Both the position numbers and the translations under genes were made by a program. From assembly GCA_015956445.1 (NCBI GenBank), contig WIUZ02000001.1:3410001-3474000 (forward strand): 64,000 nt of DNA, given 5' to 3'. The notes beneath the pieces are model-generated. The model saw nothing but the letters and a program-made list of their open reading frames with translations. It did no database searches and was not told the DNA's origin. Below, piece by piece: positions 26,785 to 40,352 of the stretch. Position 1 is the first letter of the stretch. Every line of letters starts with the position of its first letter. This stretch comes from Thelephora terrestris (Eukaryota; Basidiomycota; Agaricomycetes; Thelephorales; Thelephoraceae).

Positions 26785-26847
26785 AAACACGATGTCAGAA
26801 TTACTGCCTCCTATCGACCCACCCACATTCAATGGATCCGAACTCAT
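26785..26847 (+). mobile_element. possible start of an LTR-retrotransposon gag, fossil fragment
   Basis: A short open stretch beginning MSELLPPIDPPTFNGSEL resembles the leader of fungal copia-type gag proteins. It is preceded by about 400 bp with a TATA-like box that could be an LTR. It stops at the left end of the KDZ element. Too short for a firm family call; it looks broken. Confidence 0.3.
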
Positions 26848-28067
26848 CCGGGAGTCCTTACATGATTTGTACTATTTCTACGGACTTTTCGTTCGCTTTA
26901 GTAAAATAAATGCAGTCTCAAATAGCTTAACCCTCCCCTAGTTGCAATAAAACTAATAGTACAACTAATAGTACTATTCCGCACTCCCTCGTATGTTACC
27001 GCGTGTGATGGTGGACCCGGGATGTCTCGAAACCGTGATCGGGACATGTCAGGACATGTCACGGATCCCCTCTGGCGCCTCAAACCCAATTTTGACACAT
27101 TCCGTGCCTCCTCCTTCCCTCGCGGTTGATGGCGTCCCGTCCTCGATTATTCCCTGGAGGAGCACTCGTGGGAACCTTCCATCAATCCCTCACCTTCCTC
27201 CCGTCGATTTCCCGCCCCCTCCATCAATCCTCCCGCCCTTCCGCCATCAATCCCTCCGCTGTCAATCCTCCCCTCCCGCCTTCCGCCATCAATCCTCCCG
27301 CCTTCCGCCCGCTTCCCTCCCTTGCCGGGTCCCTCCCTCCTGGGTTTGATTACTAGCATTACCTGTAGTATAGATACATATATGTCTATTAAATGTATAT
27401 ACAGAAAAAAATGAAACCAGCAGCCGCGCGCTGCAAAATATCCCCTTTCCGGGTTCGGGCGCTTGGCGCCAGCAGGAAAATAAAAATGAAAATTGTGGGT
27501 GCTACGACAGTGCGTTCGCTCTTCCCTTTGGGTAGTGAGCTGAGCTCAAGAACGGCTTTCCATCCCGTCGGTTTTCAGCCGAAACGGGGGTGGTTTAGGT
27601 CGCGCCATCCCGGGTGGGGCGGCCCAGAAAATTGTGCACTGGGATCCGGGATCGCGTCCGTTCCGTTGGCGCTCTTGGACGTCCAAATAACGTTCATTTT
27701 TCTCTGCATCCCGTCGTTCTTTTGGCCAAACGCGCGAGGTTGAATTTCTAGTCAACCCGGGTAGATTACCCCGGAAAATCATGCCCTGGGACTTGTAATT
27801 TAAAATACCTCACTTTACAATGTATTTCGTCTATTAATGTAGTGTCTAAATTGAGTGGAGCGCAGCTTTTCGGCTTGGCCACGGTTTTTATCTCTAAGTC
27901 CAAAGGTCATGTGACGCAACGAGAGAAAATTCTCTTAAGTCCACATCCTGCTGGGCCGGAAGTGACACGCAGCGCACTGCCGAGGACAAACTCCCACGGT
28001 CGCTCATTCTTCAAGTTCGGGGCAAGGGGGCAAGAAAATAAGACTGTATTATTCACCTCTCACAGGA
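26848..28067 (+). repeat. left arm of the KDZ inverted repeat
   Basis: A 1,220-bp arm starting CCGGGAGTCCTTACATG. It mirrors 37493-38712 with no length difference; translations of six frames in one arm equal those in the other. It contains a subterminal array of CCGCCATCAATCC-like words (about 27180-27320). The inner end is marked by the last shared bases CACAGGA, about 57 bp before the transposase stop. Confidence 0.93.
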
Positions 28068-28123
28068 AATTGCAAAACAAGAGCTACTACATCTGTGTGT
28101 GATAAAAAGACTCGGCACAGGCA

Positions 28124-31100
28124 TTAGTCATCGGCAAACATATCCTCATTCTCGACATAATCGTCTTCCTCAGCATCCGCACCGCCGCCGTCACCTTCAG
28201 AATCATTATCGCTTCCGCTATCAAGGGGAGCGTCCATGAGAGATTCGGGATTAGCGGAAAGCTTGGGCGGTGTAGGGACGTTGGCAGCCACGGCGGTTGA
28301 ACGATTCTCTGCCTTCCGATGACGGCGCGGTGATCGTATGGGGGTGGGATCGGCACGAGAAAGGTGGTTGCCCAACCAGGACACACCAAGAGAGTGAGCA
28401 GAGAGATATGGCCTCCAGTGGGCAACAAACAAGGTAATGAGTTCATCGTACAAGTTGGATTGTCGACAGGCGTAGGCGCAAAGCCCATCCTGGACATCAG
28501 GACGAGAGTTCGAGATGCTGCACTGGGATATGAGGGAGATCCACCAGTCCCGCTTCCATTCAAAGTACCGAAGGGTCCTTCCCATCTCCTCAACGGTGAG
28601 CTGCACTTCCTCCTCATATCGTTCGGCCCTCGCCTGACACTTCGCCCATTGAACGCGGTCGAAATCCTGACTGTCTGCATCCAATGTTTTATGGGGGGGG
28701 GGTTGACAACTCTGGTGCAGGTGCAGCGAGTTGGGGATCGCTGAGAGGGGCACCCGTGAGTGTAGATGGAAGTGGAGGGGGACGAGGGGCAATCCAAATC
28801 CAGGCATATTCGGTTCTCCCTTCAGAAGGCTGAGCTTCGTCGCGCATTGGTGCACGTAGGTGTTGCTCGTCCAAAGGTTGGAAGTATTGCCCCCAGTTGG
28901 GCGCAAGTGTCTGCACTGGATCGAGGGCTAACAGAGCTTGACGTGCATTCCGGTACTGGTTGGCCAACCGCCTGATCTTGCCACGAAAACCGTCGAGAAT
29001 ACCTTGGGAGCGGGTCGTTGCGGACGTCGACTTGGTGTGCTTGGCATTCTGATCTCGTGCAAGTTGGAGGAGTCGGATGTGGCGACGGAGATCAACGAGG
29101 GAGTCGTCGGCTTGGGCATATCGAAATCGGAGCTCAAGATCCGGGATACCCGGGAGGCACCAGGCGGACCGGCTTTCGTCAGGGAGTTGGGAAGGGACCC
29201 AAAGCTTGAGAACCTCAGGTTGGCTATCGAGTTTGTCGTTATCCTCGCTGCAGTCAGTGGGCGTAAGACCAGGGATGTACACCTTCCGACAATCGTAGTA
29301 TTGTCGAATAGTTTGGGTGAGGAGGTTTCGCGTCCTCGCAATTTCGAAAACTTGATCGGCTGCCTTAACTTTGGTTCGGTCCTTGTGCCGAAGACGACGC
29401 CTTGGATTCATGAGAATAGGATTCTAGCGTGATGTTAGGGTACTCACTGGCGTTCTTCAATATCGATGGCCATACGGAGGAAACCGCTTGGAGTGACGTC
29501 GTGCGGGGGCTTCTGGCCCTGGCTGAGCTGGGCAGCCTCTTCAGCGGCCAGTACCTGTTTTAACTTGCCAAGGGTGACGTCTGGTCATCGAGTCAGCCTT
29601 GAACAATCGATGCAACAAGAATTGACTCACGATCTCTTGGTTCCACATATGGATTCGGTTTACTGGAATCGGTGTCGAAATCTTTGCGCATCTTCGTCCA
29701 CTGTTGGAGAACGCTGGCTGGATGTTTTGCAGATATGGCTGATGCGAAGGCCCGCTGGGTCTTGCTCCATCGAATTGACCGGCGAAGGCTCTTCATAAGG
29801 AAAGCACCTGGGCGCAAGGTAAGTGGGCGGATAATAACGAACGAACAAAAAAATCACGAAGTCCAAGAAGCTTCTGCCAATTCACACTTCCCCAGTGGTC
29901 GTCGAGGATGGCTCGGCGTGCGTTGGGGCCATTTTCACGTGACCATATTGCCAGATTGCCCGACAGAGACCACCCGCCCTCAATTCGTTCGCCATCCATG
30001 CGGCCAGCCCCTTTCGTGTAGTTGAGATTGTATGTGACCTGGCAACTCTCCCCATGACCGGATAGGTGGAATTTGGGTACAACCACCCTCCAATAGCAAA
30101 GAGAGGAAAGATCGAGTGATGCCGAGACGGAATAGTTGGAGACACGTGACTGCAAGTTCTTGACCCACTGACACCCGATGTCATATGACACGAGCACACG
30201 TGATATTCCATCATCGAGGGAGGGGAGAAGCGTTGAAAGGAGAGCAAAGTCCATGTTTGTGTATCTTGAATGATATTGTGAGCCAGTGAGCGCACAGGAA
30301 GAAAGCTTTATTACCGTTCTCCCTTCTGGAGGTCAACGACTCCATTCGGGCGCTTGAAACCATGCCGCGCACAGTCTACAGCACCTACACCAGTCGCAGA
30401 GTAACCTTGGGAAAACTTGGTATGGGCCTGGTTTACGGCGTGGAACGTTGAGCCGCATGTGTTGATCTAGCAAATATAACATAAGAGACGACCAAAATAT
30501 CATTTTTAGATTTCATACCTCTGATGTCAGACCCTTCGAGGCACATTCGGCCAAATGTGTTTTTAGTACGGCGTCTGAGATCATATACGCGAGACCGTTG
30601 GAAAGGGGGGGATCCGAGAAACCACGCTCCTTCTGCTTGAGTTTGAAATTTGCGTCCATAGACAGATACAATGTATTAATCCAGCTGAAAGATAGTCAGT
30701 CCACTACCTGGCACGCATTGGCCACAAATGCACCCACTGATCGACAGAATTGGTGACCAGGTTCTTTCCTGGGTGGGGGCAAGCGGGACAGTCGATCGCG
30801 AGAGAACCGGGGGCAAGGGCATTGAACCGGCCGTCAATGTGGGCTCCACCCCCACGACGAACACGCCGTAAGTCAACCCACACGCGGGATGCAAAGGCAA
30901 GGTCGTTGTAGCGGTACTGTTGTAATATGAGCGCGCGAACGATTGTCATTAAAGTTGAACTTACAATCGGGGGACTGAGACCTGAGGCGTTGTGGATAGA
31001 TATGAGGGTTGCGTAGACGTCATAGAGGTTAATCTTGCTTCGGGTCTGGAGTTTGTGAAGGAAATCCAGGAGGCGAAACGTAAACGCAGTGCCTGGCTGT

Positions 31101-32022
31101 TTCAATGTTGCAGGGAACCATCTCATGCGAAGAAGTTGAACACGAGGCGGTCGTTGTCTTCCAGGCTCCCCGCAGTAGCAGTAGCAGATGCAGACGGTTT
31201 TAACGCCCGAAACGTCAAAGAGGGTGAGGTCCATAGCGGCGGAAGGCATTGCACAGGTTTCACCGGGACGGTGGCCGAGCTGATACGTTGCACCAAGATC
31301 ATGCAATGTGATCCTGGTGAAGAACTCGCCTGTCCATTTCTAAAAATAGCTGTCAGGTTGAAGGTGGGGTCCGGACGAAGGCGAGTGTATCACCTGAATA
31401 TTGTGCAATGGATCCGATTGGTGGGTGGTGGTGGTACAGCGTTGGCAGAGCATGCGCCTGAAGAAACAGTCAAGGCAACGGTAGATCGCGTTTGGTTCTA
31501 AGCACAGTTCACAAGGCGGGGGGTCAGGCAACCCCATGAGGCCCTCGTGTCTAGCCAGCTCATCTGTAAATTCATCCCTGTACTTTGACCATTCTTCTAT
31601 TTGTGTCTAGGGTATTGTTAGGAATAGAGGTAGAGAACGTCGTCACAGATGGAGGGAACATACCGATACCGAACGACTTGGGCCTTTCCGCTCATGGTTG
31701 CGTGTTGCTGGTAACAATACTGCTCCTTCGGTGTCAGAATAAACATCGTCATCACGCTCGAGGGGATCAGGGACAACGTCCACAAGCTGTGGAGTGGAAG
31801 GGAGAGGGATGCAGACGGGTTTGGAAGTTGTGTGGATGCGCTTGTTGCGGCGGGTGACTGTAACCTCATGGACAAGCTCGTCTTCATTGAGCGGGATACC
31901 GGTCAGGATGTCGGGACCACCCCGTTTGCGTTTGCTCTTCTGCTTGGAAGCGGAGGGCTTGTGGATGTGTCAGCGATGGAAAGAGGGATGATGGGCACAC
32001 AATTTGTGGGTGTACATACCAT
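28124..32022 (-). CDS. KDZ transposase (CxC2-type cysteine cluster)
   Basis: Multi-exon transposase read from about 32022 down to the stop at 28124. The N-terminal exon (about 31690-32022) is basic (KQKSKRKRG). Next comes the Cys cluster PPCELCLEPNAIYRCLDCFF (31340-31537), then YQLGHRPGETC and RMRWFPATLKQPGTAFTF (30704-31306), SMDANFKLK (first Asp, near 30650), and SYDIGCQWVKNLQS plus PKFHLSGHGESCQ and RMDGERIEGGW (second Asp and Glu, 29793-30254). The C-terminal YIPGL and YAQADDSLVDLRRH region (28689-29411) is followed by DFDRVQWAK to the acidic tail. Introns are short. Two frames meet with a one-base offset at a run of ten G (28693-28702), which may be a real break in the last 190 residues or a sequencing slip. 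Exact exon borders, including the first, are approximate. Confidence 0.88.
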
Positions 32023-33187
32023 CGCAGTGCCCAGAAATTATCTCCAAAGAACCTATGTGGGACAAAAATGAAGGGAGAATATTAAGTAACGTATCCCCGT
32101 AGATCTACGCAAGACGAGAGAACTGACCCCAGCGGCGACTGGAGTTGTGTTTCGTGGCACTGGTAAAGAGGGAAGAATGCACGTGATCGGCGCAAACGAA
32201 GGAAATGCTAAGTCATCATGATTGCTGGTGGCGCCAAGCACTCCTCGCTCTTGTAGGCTTTCCTCAGTGCCCTCAATTCGTTACTAGAGTAGCTGTAAAA
32301 AATCCTGTAATTACTGAAGCAAGCCACGAACGCCTCCAAGTAACATCCGGCCACTTACAGCGTCCGATCTCAGTCCAGACGACCGATGCTTCGTTCGCCT
32401 GGACATCCCTGGAAACTGCCATCCAGAGATCCTTGTGTGTTACGTTCAACGAGACCATCGCTGGGCCTTGGACGTCACAATCCTTTACTATTCATGTGAT
32501 GTATTTGGACGACAACGCCGCAAGCTTCAGGACTCCTGATCTCACGGCGATAACCTGTGAGTGTGGTCGGAATCACAGATGCACAAATGCACACCACCTG
32601 TGGCTTTGAAGACCATCGAGACCCAGCCTCGTCAAACGACAAAATCCCAGTCTACTCATACGATAAGGTGCGGCCACACTATAAGTCATAGGGTTTCCTG
32701 GGCTCACAACGACAATCCGTGAACCACAGGGTAAGTTTCTCGCTCCTCGCAATTAACACTCGTGAAAGCAAATGAGTTTCAATGTCGTTCAATGAAACCT
32801 GGGTCTGTTCGTACGGTACATGTGATACTACTGAGCTAAAAGTCATTGTAACTCTGTATCTTATGACAACAACCCACGAATGTAGCCGGAACCGCAGATA
32901 TCAAGTTGTCCTCAACACGATCAGTGCGATGCAGCCATCTTGGACCACCCAGGACACGACGGCACACTCTCGTTTACACTGATCTGTGATTGAACCCAGA
33001 TCATAGCTCGTCGGTCGTCTGCGATTCCTGATCTTCACCGCCTCTCTTTTTGTATAGTTGCGTTCCACCCCACTTGATGTACCCTTTATTTCACTCACGA
33101 GTAATTTTCCTTACTCACTCATGTGCGTGTGACTCGATGTGATCAAGATAGGGCCGAAAACCAAGAAAAGTAATCAACGCTAGATGT
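32023..33187. other. spacer inside the KDZ element
   Basis: About 1.1 kb with no supported gene. It should include the promoter of the KDZ transposase and the 3' end of the viroplasmin-domain gene. I see no repeat or RNA gene here. Confidence 0.4.
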
Positions 33188-34215
33188 CTACTCGTATCCA
33201 CACTCCCATTCGTCTTCCTCTATCAAATTATTTGGCAGCTTCTGGTTCACCAACTCGACCTTGCCCTTCAACAAACAAACCTGATATGCAACGATTGCTT
33301 CTTCCTTGGAATGATATGACTGATGGACGGCCTTGGAGACACCTTGCGTTGCTTCGGCAACATGACTCCTGTGCACGTATGTCAGGAGACGCAACGGATG
33401 AGGGCGGGCTGACTTACCAGGCGGCAAAAATCCCAATAGCCCTGCCCTTCGAGACGTAGTACCACTTGCGACCAGAACCGCGCTCGGGTGGGGCATGGAC
33501 AAGAGTTCTGACTACGTGCTGTGGGTTCGTGAGCCGGATGAACGGTAATTCGCCAAGATAGTTGGGGTCGGCTCGGATCTTAGACTTTACGAGCTCAAAC
33601 TCTGAAACAATAAGCACCAATGGCGTGACTTTCAGAAATAACTCACCGTGCTTCAACAGAGTTGACTCGTTGACCTCTATCGCCGAGAGATCGGGATGGA
33701 TGCCAAGTGCTCTAGGCATTCCCCCGCCGGCCGGGAGTGGACTTGACAATGGCGATGGGGAAGCAGTCACGCCACTGCGGTGGTTACGAGTGGAACGTCT
33801 GGGTTCCCTGTGTGGTGTCAGCGGGAGATTGTGAGTGGACAGCGGCTGATCCGACGTCTGGGACACCGCGGAAATGGTGGGGGTAGGGGACCGAACACTG
33901 CGTTTGCTGTGCACTGGTGAACTGCTGAGAGCATCTGCTGTCTGGTTGGACCGCAGCCGAGCGGAGGTCGTAGAAGGGGTGGGCCATGGAGAAAATTCAA
34001 TGCCTCCATCAATGGAGGAACCATCGGCTGGTTCGTAAACCGCTGCGGCACGGTGTCTGGTGTCGCTAGTCACGGGGCCAATAGTGAGGGTGGGTCAGTG
34101 GGAGAAAGATCGAAACGGAGTACCTGTGATTCGCGTGGGATGGTGCCTTGCGACGCGGAGAAGCGACGTCGGAAATTTGGAAGGATCCCACAGGAGAATC
34201 CTGCCACGGATTCAT
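33188..34215 (-). CDS. protein with RNase H1 N-terminal (viroplasmin-like) domain
   Basis: Exons (minus) 34215-34124, 34065-33418 and 33368-33188 sum to 921 nt, or 306 aa, with phases closing. The first 160 residues are Ser/Pro/Thr-rich and probably disordered. The C-terminal part, RKWYYVSKGRAIGIFAAW followed by GVSKAVHQSYHSKEEAIVAY, fits the caulimovirus viroplasmin / RNase H1 N-terminal fold (PF01693-like), which binds RNA-DNA hybrids or double-stranded RNA in RNase H1. No RNase H catalytic domain follows. The gene sits inside the KDZ element, head-to-head with the accessory gene at 34694. A role in transposition is inference from position only. The start at 34215 is the first ATG that keeps the frame. 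Confidence 0.65.
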
Positions 34216-34693
34216 CGACCCCAGCACGAGCGGCGAGAGAAGCTCGGGGGCGGGTGGTTGCCGTAGATCAACGCTACCTGAAGGTGGAGTCGAGATGTTG
34301 GTCAAACTTCTGGGTAGGAGGTCAGTCTGCAGGACATATAAAAATAAAAAATCTCTCACGAAGCCCCCCCCTGGTTGACATATTTTCAAAATATTCCTTC
34401 GCTTTAGATAGCGTTAACGAAATGAGAAGAAAGATAAAAAATGATTTGAATGACCTTTCTCGGGGCCACCGGAAACCAGGAGGAGCTGGGAAAGAGCATC
34501 TACGATATCTTTGTCCATGGATAAGCGCAAGGGAGACGTGGCATGGGAAACGTGCCAAACCCTGCCCTTGGCTGCCAGCCGGGGCGCTAATCACACATCA
34601 GGCATAAAACGGAGCATCGCCATCAATATCCCTCATCGATCGCCTCCTTCTTAACCGCTGGCATCGAGCTATTGCTAATCGACCGCCTTCGAA
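34216..34693. promoter_or_regulatory. divergent promoter region inside the KDZ element
   Basis: The 478 bp between two head-to-head cargo genes. Its middle (34340-34460) is AT-rich compared with the surroundings. An alternative longer first exon of the minus-strand gene could run to about 34330. No clear TATA box. Confidence 0.35.
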
Positions 34694-37372
34694 ATGGAAA
34701 GTTCCACGGCGGAACCAACGGACATCTCGCGGAATTTAAGCCGTTCCGAGGATACCCTCCTGTTCCCCGCTGCTTTCCCTTGCTTCTCGTCTTTCTCCTG
34801 CCTACTTCTCTTTCCTGCCGCTCTTATCTCAGAGATGGGACGACCTCGATGGACTACGCCCGAACAACTCGCCTTTCTCGAGTCCTTCCTTCACCTGCTC
34901 CCACAAGTTAAAGGGTCTACTGGGCTTACCACGCTGTACTCGCAAGTCTACGACGCCTTCCTGCAGAAGTGGGACCCGGCACCTCTCAAACCAGACCCCA
35001 AGCTATCTCCCGAGGCTCTTGAGGCTGCAGCGAAAACAAGGCTGCGTAGCGTAAGTCTTTTTTTCGATTCTTTATGCTCGTGTACTCACGGACCTTTAGC
35101 GCATCGCCTACTGGTATGGACGCGAGCGACAGGCCGCCATGAAGGGGCTGCCGTACTCGAAACCAGCACCTCGCGTCCTCGACTTATCCGGCAAGTCACG
35201 GCGTAAGAAGTCCCCCTATCAACCTCACCAGGCATTCTCCATCCTACACTGGCGACCAGCGGGCTCCTCACTCCGTGGTGAGGTCGAGGACCTCTGGGCC
35301 CGACGGCTCGAACCTTCTGTGCGCCAAATGCTCAAGCCGTTCCTCAGCGAAACTGCCAAGTCCTCATCCACGACTTCGGAGAAGCTACTATTCCACATGG
35401 CCGTCATGCGCTGGAAGTGCAGCCTCTTGTCTCCGGACGAGCGCGCCGAGCTTAACAGCTGGATCGACCACCAAAAAAATTCAAAGGAGGCGGCTCGAAC
35501 CCTTCCATGGTCAGTGGAAGCCGGCGAACATGGAGACGATCTATTTGCTGAGAACTCTTATGTGCAACGGTTAGTTTCCGCACCCTTTGTTGACAGCGGA
35601 CACTGAGCTCACTATCTTATAGCTCTATCGACAACCTGGCGACCACGGTACAGACGGCCATTGAGGAGATCGAGCGGCAAACTGGCTGGAAGGCGATGGT
35701 CATCCTCGGCGGTCTCGAACCGGGTGCAGGAGGAATTACCAGTCACCTGTAAGCCTCACCACCGTCTCTCGTGCCCCAACCCTTCTAACCCTTGCATAGA
35801 TACGAGACTGGGAAGTCTAGAGATACTGAACAGTCGTTCCGTGAAGCCCACCCTGAAGTTGCGACTGTGCGCACAATGTTTCACGAGTGGCTACGTACAG
35901 TATACAGTATGTAATTTTATTGTCTCTAGAGACTCTTCACTGACTGTTTTACCTCAGGTGATGAGGAGAAAAAGCGACGCTCCTTACAGGGTGCCGTCTC
36001 TCTTCTTTCCATGGCCTCGCCCCCTCTTTTGGACGTAACCGCTATGGGGACCAAAGATGCTGGCTTCTCACTCCCCCTTGCAGACACCAATATTCCAACC
36101 ACTCCCATGCATACCGGTGGCAACCCTCCACCCCACCCTGCAGACACCGACGGTCTAATCACCATGGATATGGAGACCGAAGATGACTCCCCGCCCTACC
36201 TTGCTGGCACGAACGATATGACCACCGCTATGGATACCGAGGATGACACCTCCCTACCCCACCTTGCAAACACAGACAATCCAACCTCTCCCACCGGTGC
36301 GGATGATCAACAAAGCCTCAACCTTCCTGCATCATCCCTACCACAGACTACGGATCCCTCGCCTTTTGACCCCGCCTCCAGAAATATGTCTGAAACCCCA
36401 CTGCGATTACCGTCACCATTCCTCGATGGCTCGAGCTCCAGCTCGCCGTCCACTCCCTCGCCTGCTGCCAATTTGCTGCACGCCACTTCACCCTGCTCCT
36501 CCACACCAGCTGAGACCCCACTTGCCCAGCCGTCCTTGGAAAGTGCAGGGAATGGCGCATTCAACCTGCCTGGTGTTTGCAAGGACTTTCTTTCCGAGAG
36601 TACCCGCGAATACTGGGAATCAGTTCCCGGCGGCGAGAAGTGGGTTGCGATGGTCAAAAGTTATCTGGTGCTCCAAACAATGCCTTCCTCGAATCGTGTA
36701 AGTACTATTCTAAATCATATTCTTCCATAATCAACTGACAGCTATATCTAGCAACTTGTGCGACTCTCTGCAATGTCTCGACCAGATGAGTTACAAACCT
36801 GGCTGAAATCTGGGAAGCGTTCCCTCGACCGGGTCCCCGTCATTACGGATGCCTACCACTACGGAACTCGATGGGCAAAATGGTGGATGGCAGCCCAACC
36901 ACAGGAACGCGATGTACGACAATGGCCACCCCCGAGGAACGCCATCAGCGACGCCGGCTGGCATAGGTTTCCTGCCCATGGAAAAGATGGGCTTTTCATT
37001 GCGGTCATGGCGTTAGCTTGGTGGGCTCCCGCAGTACAATCCCTCGATGAGATTGCATTCTTTGAACAAGGAGTGACTGATCTTCACTGGGTCATTCAGG
37101 AGTTGACATGTGTTAAGAAAACTCGCCAACTCTCACCCTCCTCCACACTGCCGCCTCAGGACGAGCTTGTCAATGTCCATCAACCCGCACCTGCTGCCAG
37201 TCGACCCAAGCCTACCCGCACTTCCAACTCTGTTCTCCGTCCACCAGCCTCGTCTTCCACTCCACGCCCGTCGTCTTCTTGTCCGGTGTCTACTTCGGGG
37301 GTTCATACCCATTCACGTACTGAGGGGAAACGAGTGGTAAAACCGACCTGGAAGGCACAGGCGGCTGGGTAG
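34694..37372 (+). CDS. KDZ-associated accessory protein (SANT/Myb-like N-terminus)
   Basis: Exons 34694-35050, 35100-35569, 35623-35748, 35800-35906, 35958-36697 and 36752-37372 sum to 2,421 nt, or 806 aa, all in phase. The start could instead be the ATG at 34835, directly before GRPRWTTPEQLAFLESFL, a SANT/Myb-like DNA-binding start often seen in basidiomycete transposon proteins. The centre is Pro/Thr/Asp-rich with repeats around DTEDD. The C-terminal module (YWESVPGGEKWVAMVKSYL, then GLFIAVMALAWWAPAVQSLD and VTDLHWVIQEL) is a conserved Agaricomycete pattern without a known function. It ends 121 bp before the right arm. It looks intact and may be a regulator or partner of the transposase. 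Confidence 0.7.
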
Positions 37373-37492
37373 CTTGCTTTTATATACGTATTACCTTTGC
37401 CCTCGCACTTCATCTGTAAGGCAAACGAGTTTCTTGGTCCCGAGTCAATCTATAGATAACACAAAGCCATGTTTTTGATAAATTTTGCGACC

Positions 37493-38712
37493 TCCTGTGA
37501 GAGGTGAATAATACAGTCTTATTTTCTTGCCCCCTTGCCCCGAACTTGAAGAATGAGCGACCGTGGGAGTTTGTCCTCGGCAGTGCGCTGCGTGTCACTT
37601 CCGGCCCAGCAGGATGTGGACTTAAGAGAATTTTCTCTCGTTGCGTCACATGACCTTTGGACTTAGAGATAAAAACCGTGGCCAAGCCGAAAAGCTGCGC
37701 TCCACTCAATTTAGACACTACATTAATAGACGAAATACATTGTAAAGTGAGGTATTTTAAATTACAAGTCCCAGGGCATGATTTTCCGGGGTAATCTACC
37801 CGGGTTGACTAGAAATTCAACCTCGCGCGTTTGGCCAAAAGAACGACGGGATGCAGAGAAAAATGAACGTTATTTGGACGTCCAAGAGCGCCAACGGAAC
37901 GGACGCGATCCCGGATCCCAGTGCACAATTTTCTGGGCCGCCCCACCCGGGATGGCGCGACCTAAACCACCCCCGTTTCGGCTGAAAACCGACGGGATGG
38001 AAAGCCGTTCTTGAGCTCAGCTCACTACCCAAAGGGAAGAGCGAACGCACTGTCGTAGCACCCACAATTTTCATTTTTATTTTCCTGCTGGCGCCAAGCG
38101 CCCGAACCCGGAAAGGGGATATTTTGCAGCGCGCGGCTGCTGGTTTCATTTTTTTCTGTATATACATTTAATAGACATATATGTATCTATACTACAGGTA
38201 ATGCTAGTAATCAAACCCAGGAGGGAGGGACCCGGCAAGGGAGGGAAGCGGGCGGAAGGCGGGAGGATTGATGGCGGAAGGCGGGAGGGGAGGATTGACA
38301 GCGGAGGGATTGATGGCGGAAGGGCGGGAGGATTGATGGAGGGGGCGGGAAATCGACGGGAGGAAGGTGAGGGATTGATGGAAGGTTCCCACGAGTGCTC
38401 CTCCAGGGAATAATCGAGGACGGGACGCCATCAACCGCGAGGGAAGGAGGAGGCACGGAATGTGTCAAAATTGGGTTTGAGGCGCCAGAGGGGATCCGTG
38501 ACATGTCCTGACATGTCCCGATCACGGTTTCGAGACATCCCGGGTCCACCATCACACGCGGTAACATACGAGGGAGTGCGGAATAGTACTATTAGTTGTA
38601 CTATTAGTTTTATTGCAACTAGGGGAGGGTTAAGCTATTTGAGACTGCATTTATTTTACTAAAGCGAACGAAAAGTCCGTAGAAATAGTACAAATCATGT
38701 AAGGACTCCCGG
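37493..38712 (-). repeat. right arm of the KDZ inverted repeat
   Basis: Reverse complement of 26848-28067 over 1,220 bp, without length change. It ends GACTCCCGG at 38712, where the fold-back element begins. Confidence 0.93.
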
Positions 38713-39545
38713 GCCGTGCATCGATTCTTGGTTTTAATTTTCTACGAAGGCAATACCCTGCGTGAAATCACCACACTGGTGGTCATCAAAAGGCTACCCA
38801 TACTCAGGTGTTGGGGGTGCTATAGGTGTCGAATTTCGCCGTAGTCTGGGTGGCCAAATGTCACACCCCGCACTGCACTCGACGTTGTTAGTGTATCTCA
38901 CATCAGTCTCAAGTTACACAGTCTTTATCCCCATAGACCATTATATCCGAGTTACGGCCGCTGCGTTCAAGGGAGAACTGTGGCGCACACCCCTGTTGGG
39001 CGGAGTCTGGGGACCGGCAACCCTCCGCCAAAATTTGATCCCGCGCATGAATTCCCACACACCGAGTTCGTTCCGTAACTTTCGAAGCTAAATTTATCTA
39101 GACTGCCATACACCAGACTCAAATTAAAAACATGTAGCATTCGGGGGTACTGTAGACTTTTATTTCATGGTGTGGTCTTCTGGGAGAGTATCTCGGACGA
39201 CAGAAATTGAGGGTTTTCTGCGAATCTTAGTGATCGAATCGAGCAAGGCGACTCCGCCCAACAGGGGTGTGCGCCACAGTTCTCCCTTGAACGCAGCGGC
39301 CGTAACTCGGATATAATGGTCTATGGGGATAAAGACTGTGTAACTTGAGACTGATGTGAGATACACTAACAACGTCGAGTGCAGTGCGGGGTGTGACATT
39401 TGGCCACCCAGACTACGGTGAAATTCGACACCTATAGCACCCCCAACACCTGAGTATGGGTAGCCTTTTGATGACCACCAGTGTGGTGATTTCACGCAGG
39501 GTATTGCCTTCGTAGAAAATTAAAACCAAGAATCGATGCACGGCC
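38712..39545. mobile_element. 834-bp fold-back (long-TIR MITE-like) element
   Basis: Arms 38712-39007 and 39250-39545 (296 bp each) are reverse complements; paired coordinates sum to 78257, and one mismatch was noted. A 242-bp loop lies between them. The outer ends read GGCCGTGCATCGATTCTTGG. There is no coding content beyond arm-derived frames, so it is non-autonomous. No target duplication is visible. A stretch in its loop (about 39008-39025, GGGGACCGGCAACCC) recurs reversed at about 39675-39693 outside the element. Confidence 0.85.
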
Positions 39546-40352
39546 ACGCCACATATTATTTCCGTGTATCTAATCCGACGCATGCACTTTGGACGGGCTG
39601 GAAAATTGACCAGAGGAAGCCAGAGGACTTCTCACTGGGGAGCCAATTTCAAATGAGCACGCGCAGCCAAGGCGGGTTGCCGGTCCCCACGCGATGCACG
39701 ATTGCCCTTTTCTGAGCGCGCCGCCCAATTTCGGGACAGGGTAAACGCATTTTGATGTATTTTCTTCCTTCAAGCATGGTGTACAGGTAGGCACGACGGA
39801 GTCACACCTCTGCGGGGAACATCAATAGCGGCAACGTGGATCAGACAATTTAAAAACTGACCCGCTTCTTCTGACTGTCAAGGACGATGTGGGTTAGCCG
39901 CGTACTTCGCCGGACGGGGGAAACGAGAACACCGACCGGCAGCGCTCACAGCTCATGGGGATTTGGAGGGCCCAAGGAGTGACCGCGACTGGGAACAAAC
40001 CACGACTGTATATATACGTTGATGAAGGTGGGCGATGGCCGTAATTTGTGAACCATTCTTGGGTCGGCAGGTCACTGGGCAAGCTCCGAGGCTAGGTCGA
40101 GTGGAAGGGACATTACTGTAAACCGTCGAATACGCTCGGACGATCCGCCGGCTGTCGCCCGCGTTGTCCTCGGCGGTTGCGCCTTACGTCCAAGGAGCAC
40201 CATCCCGCGGCACAAGATTTGGGATTTGCTGAGCGCTGCTCGGTCACTTAGCCTATATCGGTAACGGTTACTGATGGATGCATCAGGCGGCCCGGATACC
40301 CAACTACGAGGTTTACTAGTATCCACCACCACCTAACATCCTACCAATATCC
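39546..40352. promoter_or_regulatory. upstream region of the DUF6699 gene
   Basis: No gene is supported. A TATATATA-like box lies near 40009-40016, about 340 bp before the start codon of the DUF6699 gene. The region also holds the reversed GGGTTGCCGGTCCCC stretch shared with the fold-back loop. It marks the edge between the transposon island and the host genes. Confidence 0.45.

Follow-up and report, generated by a model that had tools for sequence, protein, structure and literature searches.

A KDZ transposon of Thelephora terrestris with kilobase-long terminal inverted repeats and two genes beside the transposase

Architecture of the Element

The window, a stretch of 64,000 nucleotides of Thelephora terrestris DNA, contains a KDZ DNA transposon of 11,863 bp (26849–38711) that is bounded by two terminal inverted repeats (TIRs), here called arms, and encloses three genes, as the original prediction had described: the transposase gene T and gene A on the minus strand and a divergent gene B on the plus strand (Table 1). 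Each gene can be read as an open frame with GT-AG introns in hand-made models. The arms were predicted at 26848–28077 and 37483–38712 (coordinate sum 65560), and this placement is reproduced by the arm alignment. The accompanying claim of a base-for-base match fails over these 1230 bp, which include three mismatches at the innermost edge (28068, 28069, and 28071), and holds for the 1219 bp counted from the outer ends. Exact inverted identity over 1.2 kb is far beyond chance. The pairing of 26848 with 38712 is itself probably a chance match rather than part of the arms, because related elements start at the base equivalent to 26849. The window copy ends in CG..CG rather than CA..TG. Pyrimidine-rich direct repeats within the arms may represent binding sites, and direct repeats at some 230–580 bp from the ends are candidate sites for B and T. 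The stop of T lies ~57 bp and that of B ~121 bp inward from the edges of the identical arms, which may supply a common 3' end to both.

Table 1. Features of the element and its immediate surroundings (window coordinates)
Feature	Position	Strand	Remarks
Expected site of 7-bp target duplication, left flank, ACTCATC	26842–26848		not repeated at right end
Left arm (TIR), 1219 bp	26849–28067	+	identical to right arm
Imperfect direct repeats in left arm, pyrimidine-rich	27179–27324	+	mirrored at 38236–38381
T, KDZ transposase gene	28124–32022	-	12 exons, 1110 aa; CxC2 and full-length KDZ domain; hand-made model
A, hybrid-binding (Cauli_VI) RNase H1 N-terminal domain	33188–34215	-	291 aa; hand-made model
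A exons	34124–34215, 33647–34065, 33418–33601, 33188–33368	-	hand-made model
B, divergent from T and A	34835–37372	+	759 aa; hand-made model
B exons	34835–35050, 35100–35569, 35623–35748, 35800–35906, 35958–36697, 36752–37372	+	hand-made model
Right arm (TIR), 1219 bp	37493–38711	-	identical to left arm
Inverted MITE fragment, 296 bp	38712–39007	-	abuts right arm; copy of 39250–39545, one mismatch
MITE-like dispersed repeat, complete, 682 bp	39008–39689	+	ends TGGGGACCGGCAACCC; outside KDZ element

The Three Gene Products

The KDZ identity assigned to T beforehand is borne out by Pfam, which recognizes the KDZ domain (PF18758, E=8.7e-60, positions 2–217 of 217) and a CxC2 cysteine cluster (E=2.2e-29), and not a P-type transposase with a THAP domain. 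The uncertain parts of the T model are its first exon, comprising just the start codon, and a junction at about 28.74–28.78 kb, where a weak donor has a run of 10 C residues alongside. T, A, and those parts of B that were scanned show no match to a TET/JBP dioxygenase. The RNase H1 N-terminal domain of A is recognized by Pfam with E=1.9e-8. A search of the whole genome with PF01693 listed only two loci and failed to recover A of the window element, in which an intron interrupts the domain, so this search is not evidence against A.

For B, an in-frame ATG at 34694 offers an alternative start upstream. No Pfam domain is found in the scanned parts of the window B or in the copy of B from family F3, and the copy from family F2 has a weak Homeobox_KN match of 15 residues (E=0.0078) that falls below the cut-off. 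A PDB search with a three-sequence B profile returned nothing credible (best E=0.29). An N-terminal domain with a motif resembling a recognition helix is a weak lead, and assignment of B as homeodomain-like or HMG-like is likewise only a lead. An HMG-like gene has reportedly been described in KDZ elements, by Iyer et al. in 2014. Of 28 loci with a B-family gene, the window locus counted, 22 have a KDZ domain no more than 20 kb away, and about 5.3% of the genome lies within that distance of a KDZ place; at the other six loci no KDZ place occurs within 20 kb. In all 22 linked loci B and the KDZ gene are oriented head to head, and exon identities of B fall to 27–30% across loci, a deep divergence.

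Flanking Sequences

Direct comparison of the KDZ ends reveals no target duplication at the window copy. The expected place of the right-hand duplication is occupied by the 296-bp MITE fragment, and the right flank is rearranged, with an inverted duplication (38712–39545) directly beside the element. A target duplication spanning the MITE was likewise not found: no 7–11-base word of 26801–26848 is repeated in 39671–40100. An inversion adjoining the element was considered and set aside, as judged by eye, when the flanking words did not fit. Both flanks are single-copy in the genome, except for one partial match of 49 bp, and queries with 1.25 kb of left flank and 1.5 kb of right flank located no empty site in the same genome.

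Related Elements in the Same Genome

In the window family and three others (F2, F3, and F4), sampled by their match to B and not representative of all KDZ elements in the genome, the arms measure ~1.14–1.33 kb and the termini have a GTCCTTA core in common. Among the eight copies read, six have exact 7-bp target duplications, which are absent in the window copy and in C23, and all except the window copy have CA..TG ends. The order T-A-B is repeated in F2 and also in F4, A homologues being present in both, with a short and weak match in F4. No A is detected in F3, whose element carries an Hsp70 fragment. The sampled members of this clade share a plan composed of an arm, B facing outward, A (in three of the four families), T pointing the opposite way, and the second arm. 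The element had been predicted to exceed a minimal KDZ element, which it does; neither the long arms nor the extra genes set this copy apart, as both also occur in the three other sampled families. A size of ~11 kb is ordinary for KDZ, as given for KDZ1 of Cryptococcus in the available text (PMC12810828).

The window family is represented in the genome by one whole copy and relics only. A same-genome search located arm-like sequence at three further places, C8, C21, and C2. On C8, a decayed relative retains A, B, one arm, and a 5' portion of T, with the genes arranged as in the window; the refuting outcome named with the original prediction, arms that elsewhere never flank these genes, therefore does not hold. 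No matches to A, B, or T lie beside the arm relatives on C21 and C2. That the cargo travels, as originally proposed, is supported by the C8 relative, by the linkage of B to KDZ described above, and by the three-gene order of F2.

Mirrored Changes in the Arms

Where copies of a family differ in their arms, the difference appears as a mirror image on the two arms of each copy in 28 of 28 classifiable cases, with none side-specific, and the mirrored differences include the number of ~80-bp tandem units. In F2, 16 changes are mirrored and none are side-specific or crossed; the F2 copies on C1 and C25, each with an arm in one of its two stretches, were left out of the arm pairs. F3 contributes three mirrored substitutions and one indel, and F4 contributes six substitutions and two repeat-unit length differences. 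In F3, side-specific columns set in immediately past the inner edge of the arm, which shows that the method can detect them. Unmirrored changes are private and confined to copies whose arms have diverged, with 15 such substitutions in C16 and 26 in C23, which also has a ~0.95-kb insertion in one arm only. The window copy, C11, C5b, C10, and C5' have no difference between their arms, and the three F4 copies have mirrored changes only and no private ones. From these mirrored differences, the aligned sequences indicate that arms are homogenized within an element, and this homogenization perhaps takes place during transposition.

Comparison with Known Systems

In the available text on Cryptococcus neoformans, KDZ1, KDZ2, and KDZ3 are CxC1 elements of ~9–11 kb with TIRs of 139–241 bp and short target duplications (8 bp; 4–8 bp) (PMC12810828). 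The window element is similar to these in its KDZ transposase with a CxC zinc domain, its size, its true TIRs, and the short target duplications of its relatives, and differs in having arms of ~1.2 kb and a CxC2 rather than CxC1 cluster; the consulted portion of that account names no A- or B-like genes and no arm homogenization (PMC12810828). TIRs are reported for Zisupton and Cryptococcus KDZ1–3 and not for all Kyakuja. The TET+ Kyakuja elements of Laccaria and other Agaricomycotina are described in a partial account as having an extra gene, 7-bp duplications, and CA..TG termini, and two Laccaria families are reported to lack TIRs and to carry TET/JBP (PMC12730594). The element resembles these in its KDZ lineage, a gene beside the transposase, and the 7-bp duplications and CA..TG termini of its relatives; unlike the Laccaria elements described there, the four families read here have arms above 1 kb, and the window element has no TET/JBP match in the scanned parts of its three genes.

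Galileo, a P-superfamily element of Drosophila, has TIRs of up to 1.2 kb and 7-bp duplications, and according to the excerpts available two GalileoN copies have TIRs that exceed 99% identity within each copy and diverge by ~7% from one copy to the other, the tandem repeats of Galileo-G hold transposase binding sites, and the two TIRs of a Galileo F copy are unequal in repeat number (PMC2775673, PMC3573991, PMC3688188). Long TIRs that are alike within a copy and, in the window's relatives, 7-bp duplications are shared with these accounts of Galileo; the transposase is different, and repeat number is equal in both arms here as opposed to unequal in Galileo F. Mutator-like elements also have long TIRs and belong to another superfamily, and the portion of that account consulted makes no comparison of mirrored changes (PMC3310237).

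Discussion

The element is very probably an autonomous-type KDZ transposon from a clade with a shared plan, with A and B as resident accessory genes and with arms that are equalized by copying. T would presumably cut at CA..TG-like ends, and insertion would generate the 7-bp duplications that are seen in the relatives and absent at the window copy. A and B, carried with T, would probably be helpers that bind nucleic acids and assist end synapsis or expression. Copying of one arm onto the other keeps the arms alike, as the mirrored changes show, with heteroduplex or template-switch repair between arms of an active element as the likely route. Once a copy became quiet, its arms would drift apart; private changes are observed, and they may date from that phase.

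The absence of a target duplication at the window copy and the second inverted duplication adjoining it are what would be expected if the arms had arisen around an ordinary KDZ gene by local inverted duplication, or as an artefact of assembly. This explanation is nevertheless most improbable and is largely refuted by three other families of KDZ elements bounded by arms of similar size, six of whose copies have exact 7-bp duplications, by the arm relatives on C8, C21, and C2, and by the GTCCTTA core shared among four families; in addition, mirrored numbers of ~80-bp units would be hard to produce by read polishing. Also highly unlikely is that the arms are identical through youth, having been equal at the start and not yet diverged, with no homogenization. 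The five copies without differences between arms agree with such an origin, but members of a single family are told apart by changes that each copy carries on both of its arms, in all 28 classifiable cases, repeat-unit number included. Independent arms would yield single-arm changes, and an origin in youth is thus refuted unless many parallel mutations are assumed.

Ordinary gene conversion in place between inverted repeats, independent of transposition, has an even chance of being the source of homogenization. It fits all the mirrored changes, including the three F4 copies that have no others, and for Galileo the excerpts available propose conversion between its long TIRs. However, the fixed copies C16 and C23 retain their unmirrored substitutions, and C23 its insertion, which argues that in-place conversion is not keeping up there. 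A different question is whether A and B are passenger cargo without a role in transposition, which is improbable. Cargo does vary by family, as in F3 with its Hsp70 fragment and no detectable A; yet the position and head-to-head orientation of B are kept at 22 of 28 loci through deep sequence divergence, whereas passengers would tend toward loss or reshuffling.

Returning to equalization by copying, a more tentative extension, on balance doubtful, is that every new insertion in this clade starts out with two identical arms, just as LTR elements start out with identical LTRs, one arm serving as a template for the other in transposition, possibly aided by A, with its hybrid-binding domain, and by the DNA-binding-like protein B. 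The templating step would be a panhandle or an arm-to-arm repair intermediate.

Mushroom genomes commonly contain KDZ transposons, which have received little study. That this clade keeps B next to the transposase as a fixed additional gene points to a component of the machinery, accessory in nature, that has yet to be studied, and the mirrored evolution seen in kilobase arms, even in repeat-unit number, makes the upkeep of long TIRs a directly testable question. Should the two arms be equal when an element is newly inserted, the extent to which they have since diverged would serve as an insertion clock, as with LTRs, and birth with identical arms, if true, would mean that a transposon class assumed to move by plain cut-and-paste includes a copying stage.

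Architecture of the Window Element

The window element, a KDZ transposon with long inverted arms (TIRs), was compared across the 40.6-Mb genome (60 contigs); the window itself is C1:3410001-3474000. Plentiful KDZ sequences and spliced genes suggest a basidiomycete. The arms originally predicted at 26848-28077 and 37483-38712 are real, but the proposed base-for-base match fails at 28068, 28069 and 28071 only, leaving 1219 bp without mismatch counted from the outer ends. The element start was set at 26849 because relatives begin at the corresponding base, and the extent is 11,863 bp. The termini of the window element are CG..CG, in contrast to CA..TG in all seven relatives read, and comparison of both ends of the window copy revealed no exact 7-bp target duplication. 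The insertion point lies 59 bp into an open frame (26790-26848) starting MSELLPPIDPPTFNGSELI; the element may interrupt a gene.

The transposase gene, T, encodes a KDZ domain (positions 2-217 of 217, E=8.7e-60) and a CxC2 domain (E=2.2e-29) as matched in Pfam. It is readable as 12 exons, with uncertainty at the first exon, which consists of the start codon alone, and at the junction near 28.74-28.78 kb, where a weak donor has a 10-C run alongside. The scanned parts of the divergent gene B matched nothing in Pfam. T and B are both transcribed outward, with stops ~47 and ~111 bp, respectively, from the predicted arm edges and ~57 and ~121 bp from the identical arm parts, so close that both transcripts probably end within identical arm sequence.

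The right end adjoins a 296-bp inverted copy of 39250-39545, a fragment of the neighboring dispersed repeat (MITE). A target duplication is found at neither junction of this composite (38712-39689), and both junctions coincide with transposon ends. Elsewhere, 7-bp duplications, equal in length to those of the sampled KDZ elements, flank nine of the 12 other MITE copies listed, two of the nine with common flanks (by eye). Speculatively, a double-ended cut with templated-filler repair would fit this arrangement.

Coordinates of the window element, its relatives, and associated features
Feature	Coordinates	Strand	Description	Target duplications
Window element	26849-38711
T (KDZ/CxC2 transposase)	28124-32022	minus	1110 aa
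A	33188-34215	minus	291 aa; RNase H1 N-terminal domain, E=1.9e-8
B	34835-37372	plus	759 aa
Inverted MITE fragment and complete 682-bp MITE	38712-39689		MITE itself 39008-39689
Relic	C8:362348-413411		~51 kb
F2	C16:186581-198216; C23:553589-568373		B, A, T in window order	C16 CGTAACC
F3	C5a, C5:577725-590407; C5', near C5:1104519		arms ~1.26 kb; T and B	C5a TGAGTCG; C5' GCAACGG
F4	C11:753958-764910; C5b; C10		arms 1230, 1309, 1150 bp	C11 CGAAAGT; C5b CATACTG; C10 AACTGTC
F3 Hsp70 fragments	C5:581817-582560; C5:1108640-1109383		between B and T

Relatives and Gene Linkage

Window arm sequence is observed on contigs C8 (89-98%), C21 (80%), and C2 (69-86%). The C8 copy is a relic stretched by insertions that retains, in window order, the 5' part of T (C8:372685-374939, 97% identical to 30481-32736), A (84-91% by exon, one short piece at 67%), B (81-92%), and the right arm; arm and KDZ searches of the genome found neither its left arm nor a KDZ domain. 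The expectation that other arm copies flank the same genes therefore holds for C8, with 5' T, A, and B, but not for C21 and C2, which have arm pieces only.

Genome-wide, 125 KDZ matches reduce to 59 places, approximately one per locus. B relatives occupy 28 loci, the window's own included, of which 22 lie within 20 kb of a KDZ place, a distance covering ~5.3% of the genome; all 22 are head to head and divergent. At C25 and C45, the nearest KDZ is 29 kb away, and the orientation plan is kept in C25 but not in C45. The other loci lacking a KDZ place within 20 kb are the C8 relic, C5:729k, C58:1.11-1.13M, and C6, a contig with no KDZ place. Two equal-scoring KDZ domains in opposite orientation, C23:1779813-1780607 and C23:1826317-1827111, lie 46 kb apart, possibly a larger inverted duplication.

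Three further KDZ families (F2, F3, and F4) were chosen by B match, and arms were read at those loci only. F2 exons are 34-56% (T), 28-56% (B), and 33-40% (A) identical to those of the window element; three F2 arms measure 1293, 1138, and 1327 bp, and the right arm of C23 is broken by ~0.95 kb. In the C11 copy of F4, T and B are accompanied by a short match to A (E=2e-5); A is not detectable in F3 by search with window A. As originally predicted, cargo genes travel with the transposase: B in the sampled families and A in three of four. Exact 7-bp target duplications flank six of the eight copies read; none was found at C23 or at the window copy.

The window element and its relatives share a GTCCTTA terminal core, and window arms align with F2 and F3 arms at the terminus and in short segments only. 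The repeats found in each of the four families include direct repeats located ~230-580 bp from the element ends, which differ in sequence between families and are pyrimidine-rich in the window element, F2, and F3. Both F3 copies carry an Hsp70 fragment (PF00012, E=1e-93; 99.6% identical between copies), likely captured from C1:1980985-1981551 (95% over 567 bp).

Mirrored Evolution of the Arms

The arms are homogenized within copies: all 28 classifiable differences between copies of F2, F3, and F4 are mirrored. Across the four F2 arms, with the 1158 gapped columns among the 2293 of the alignment set aside, 16 sites pair left with right of one copy, none group by side, and none are crossed; private changes number 8, 7, 8, and 18 per arm. 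Inside the F3 arm, three substitutions and one indel are mirrored and none are side-specific, with private changes absent from C5' and comprising 4-5 substitutions and two indels in C5a; side-specific columns start directly past the inner arm edge. In each F4 copy, the left arm equals the right exactly, and the copies differ by six substitutions and the number of ~80-bp tandem units (length steps of 79 and 159 bp; 2.3 and 3.3 TRF units, none called in the shortest arm), so that each difference is mirrored.

Two readings remain: conversion in place during the element's live phase or a copying step at transposition. The C23 insertion is in one arm only; therefore, equalization has stopped in this copy.

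Comparison with Known Systems

In the portions of the sources available, Cryptococcus KDZ1 spans ~11 kb, carries 241-bp TIRs, and is flanked by 8-bp duplications, and KDZ2 and KDZ3 have TIRs of 139 and 169 bp (PMC12810828). Two Laccaria Kyakuja families described by Kojima lack TIRs, terminate in CA..TG, and show 7-bp duplications (PMC12730594, section 3.2), and Marasmius KDZ TIR motifs are reportedly in a supplement (PMC8290104). The nearest parallel in these excerpts is Galileo, with TIRs that are long and identical within a copy (PMC2775673), although repeat number is said to differ between TIRs of Galileo F copies (PMC3573991). Identical TIRs are frequent in young MULEs, according to the authors (PMC3310237). 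In the literature searched, available in part, neither a kilobase-armed three-gene KDZ element nor mirrored arm evolution in KDZ was found.

In a working scheme, T would cut and join, A and B would assist, and the long arms would supply several binding sites, by analogy with Galileo. Arm-to-arm repair would keep both ends equally recognizable.
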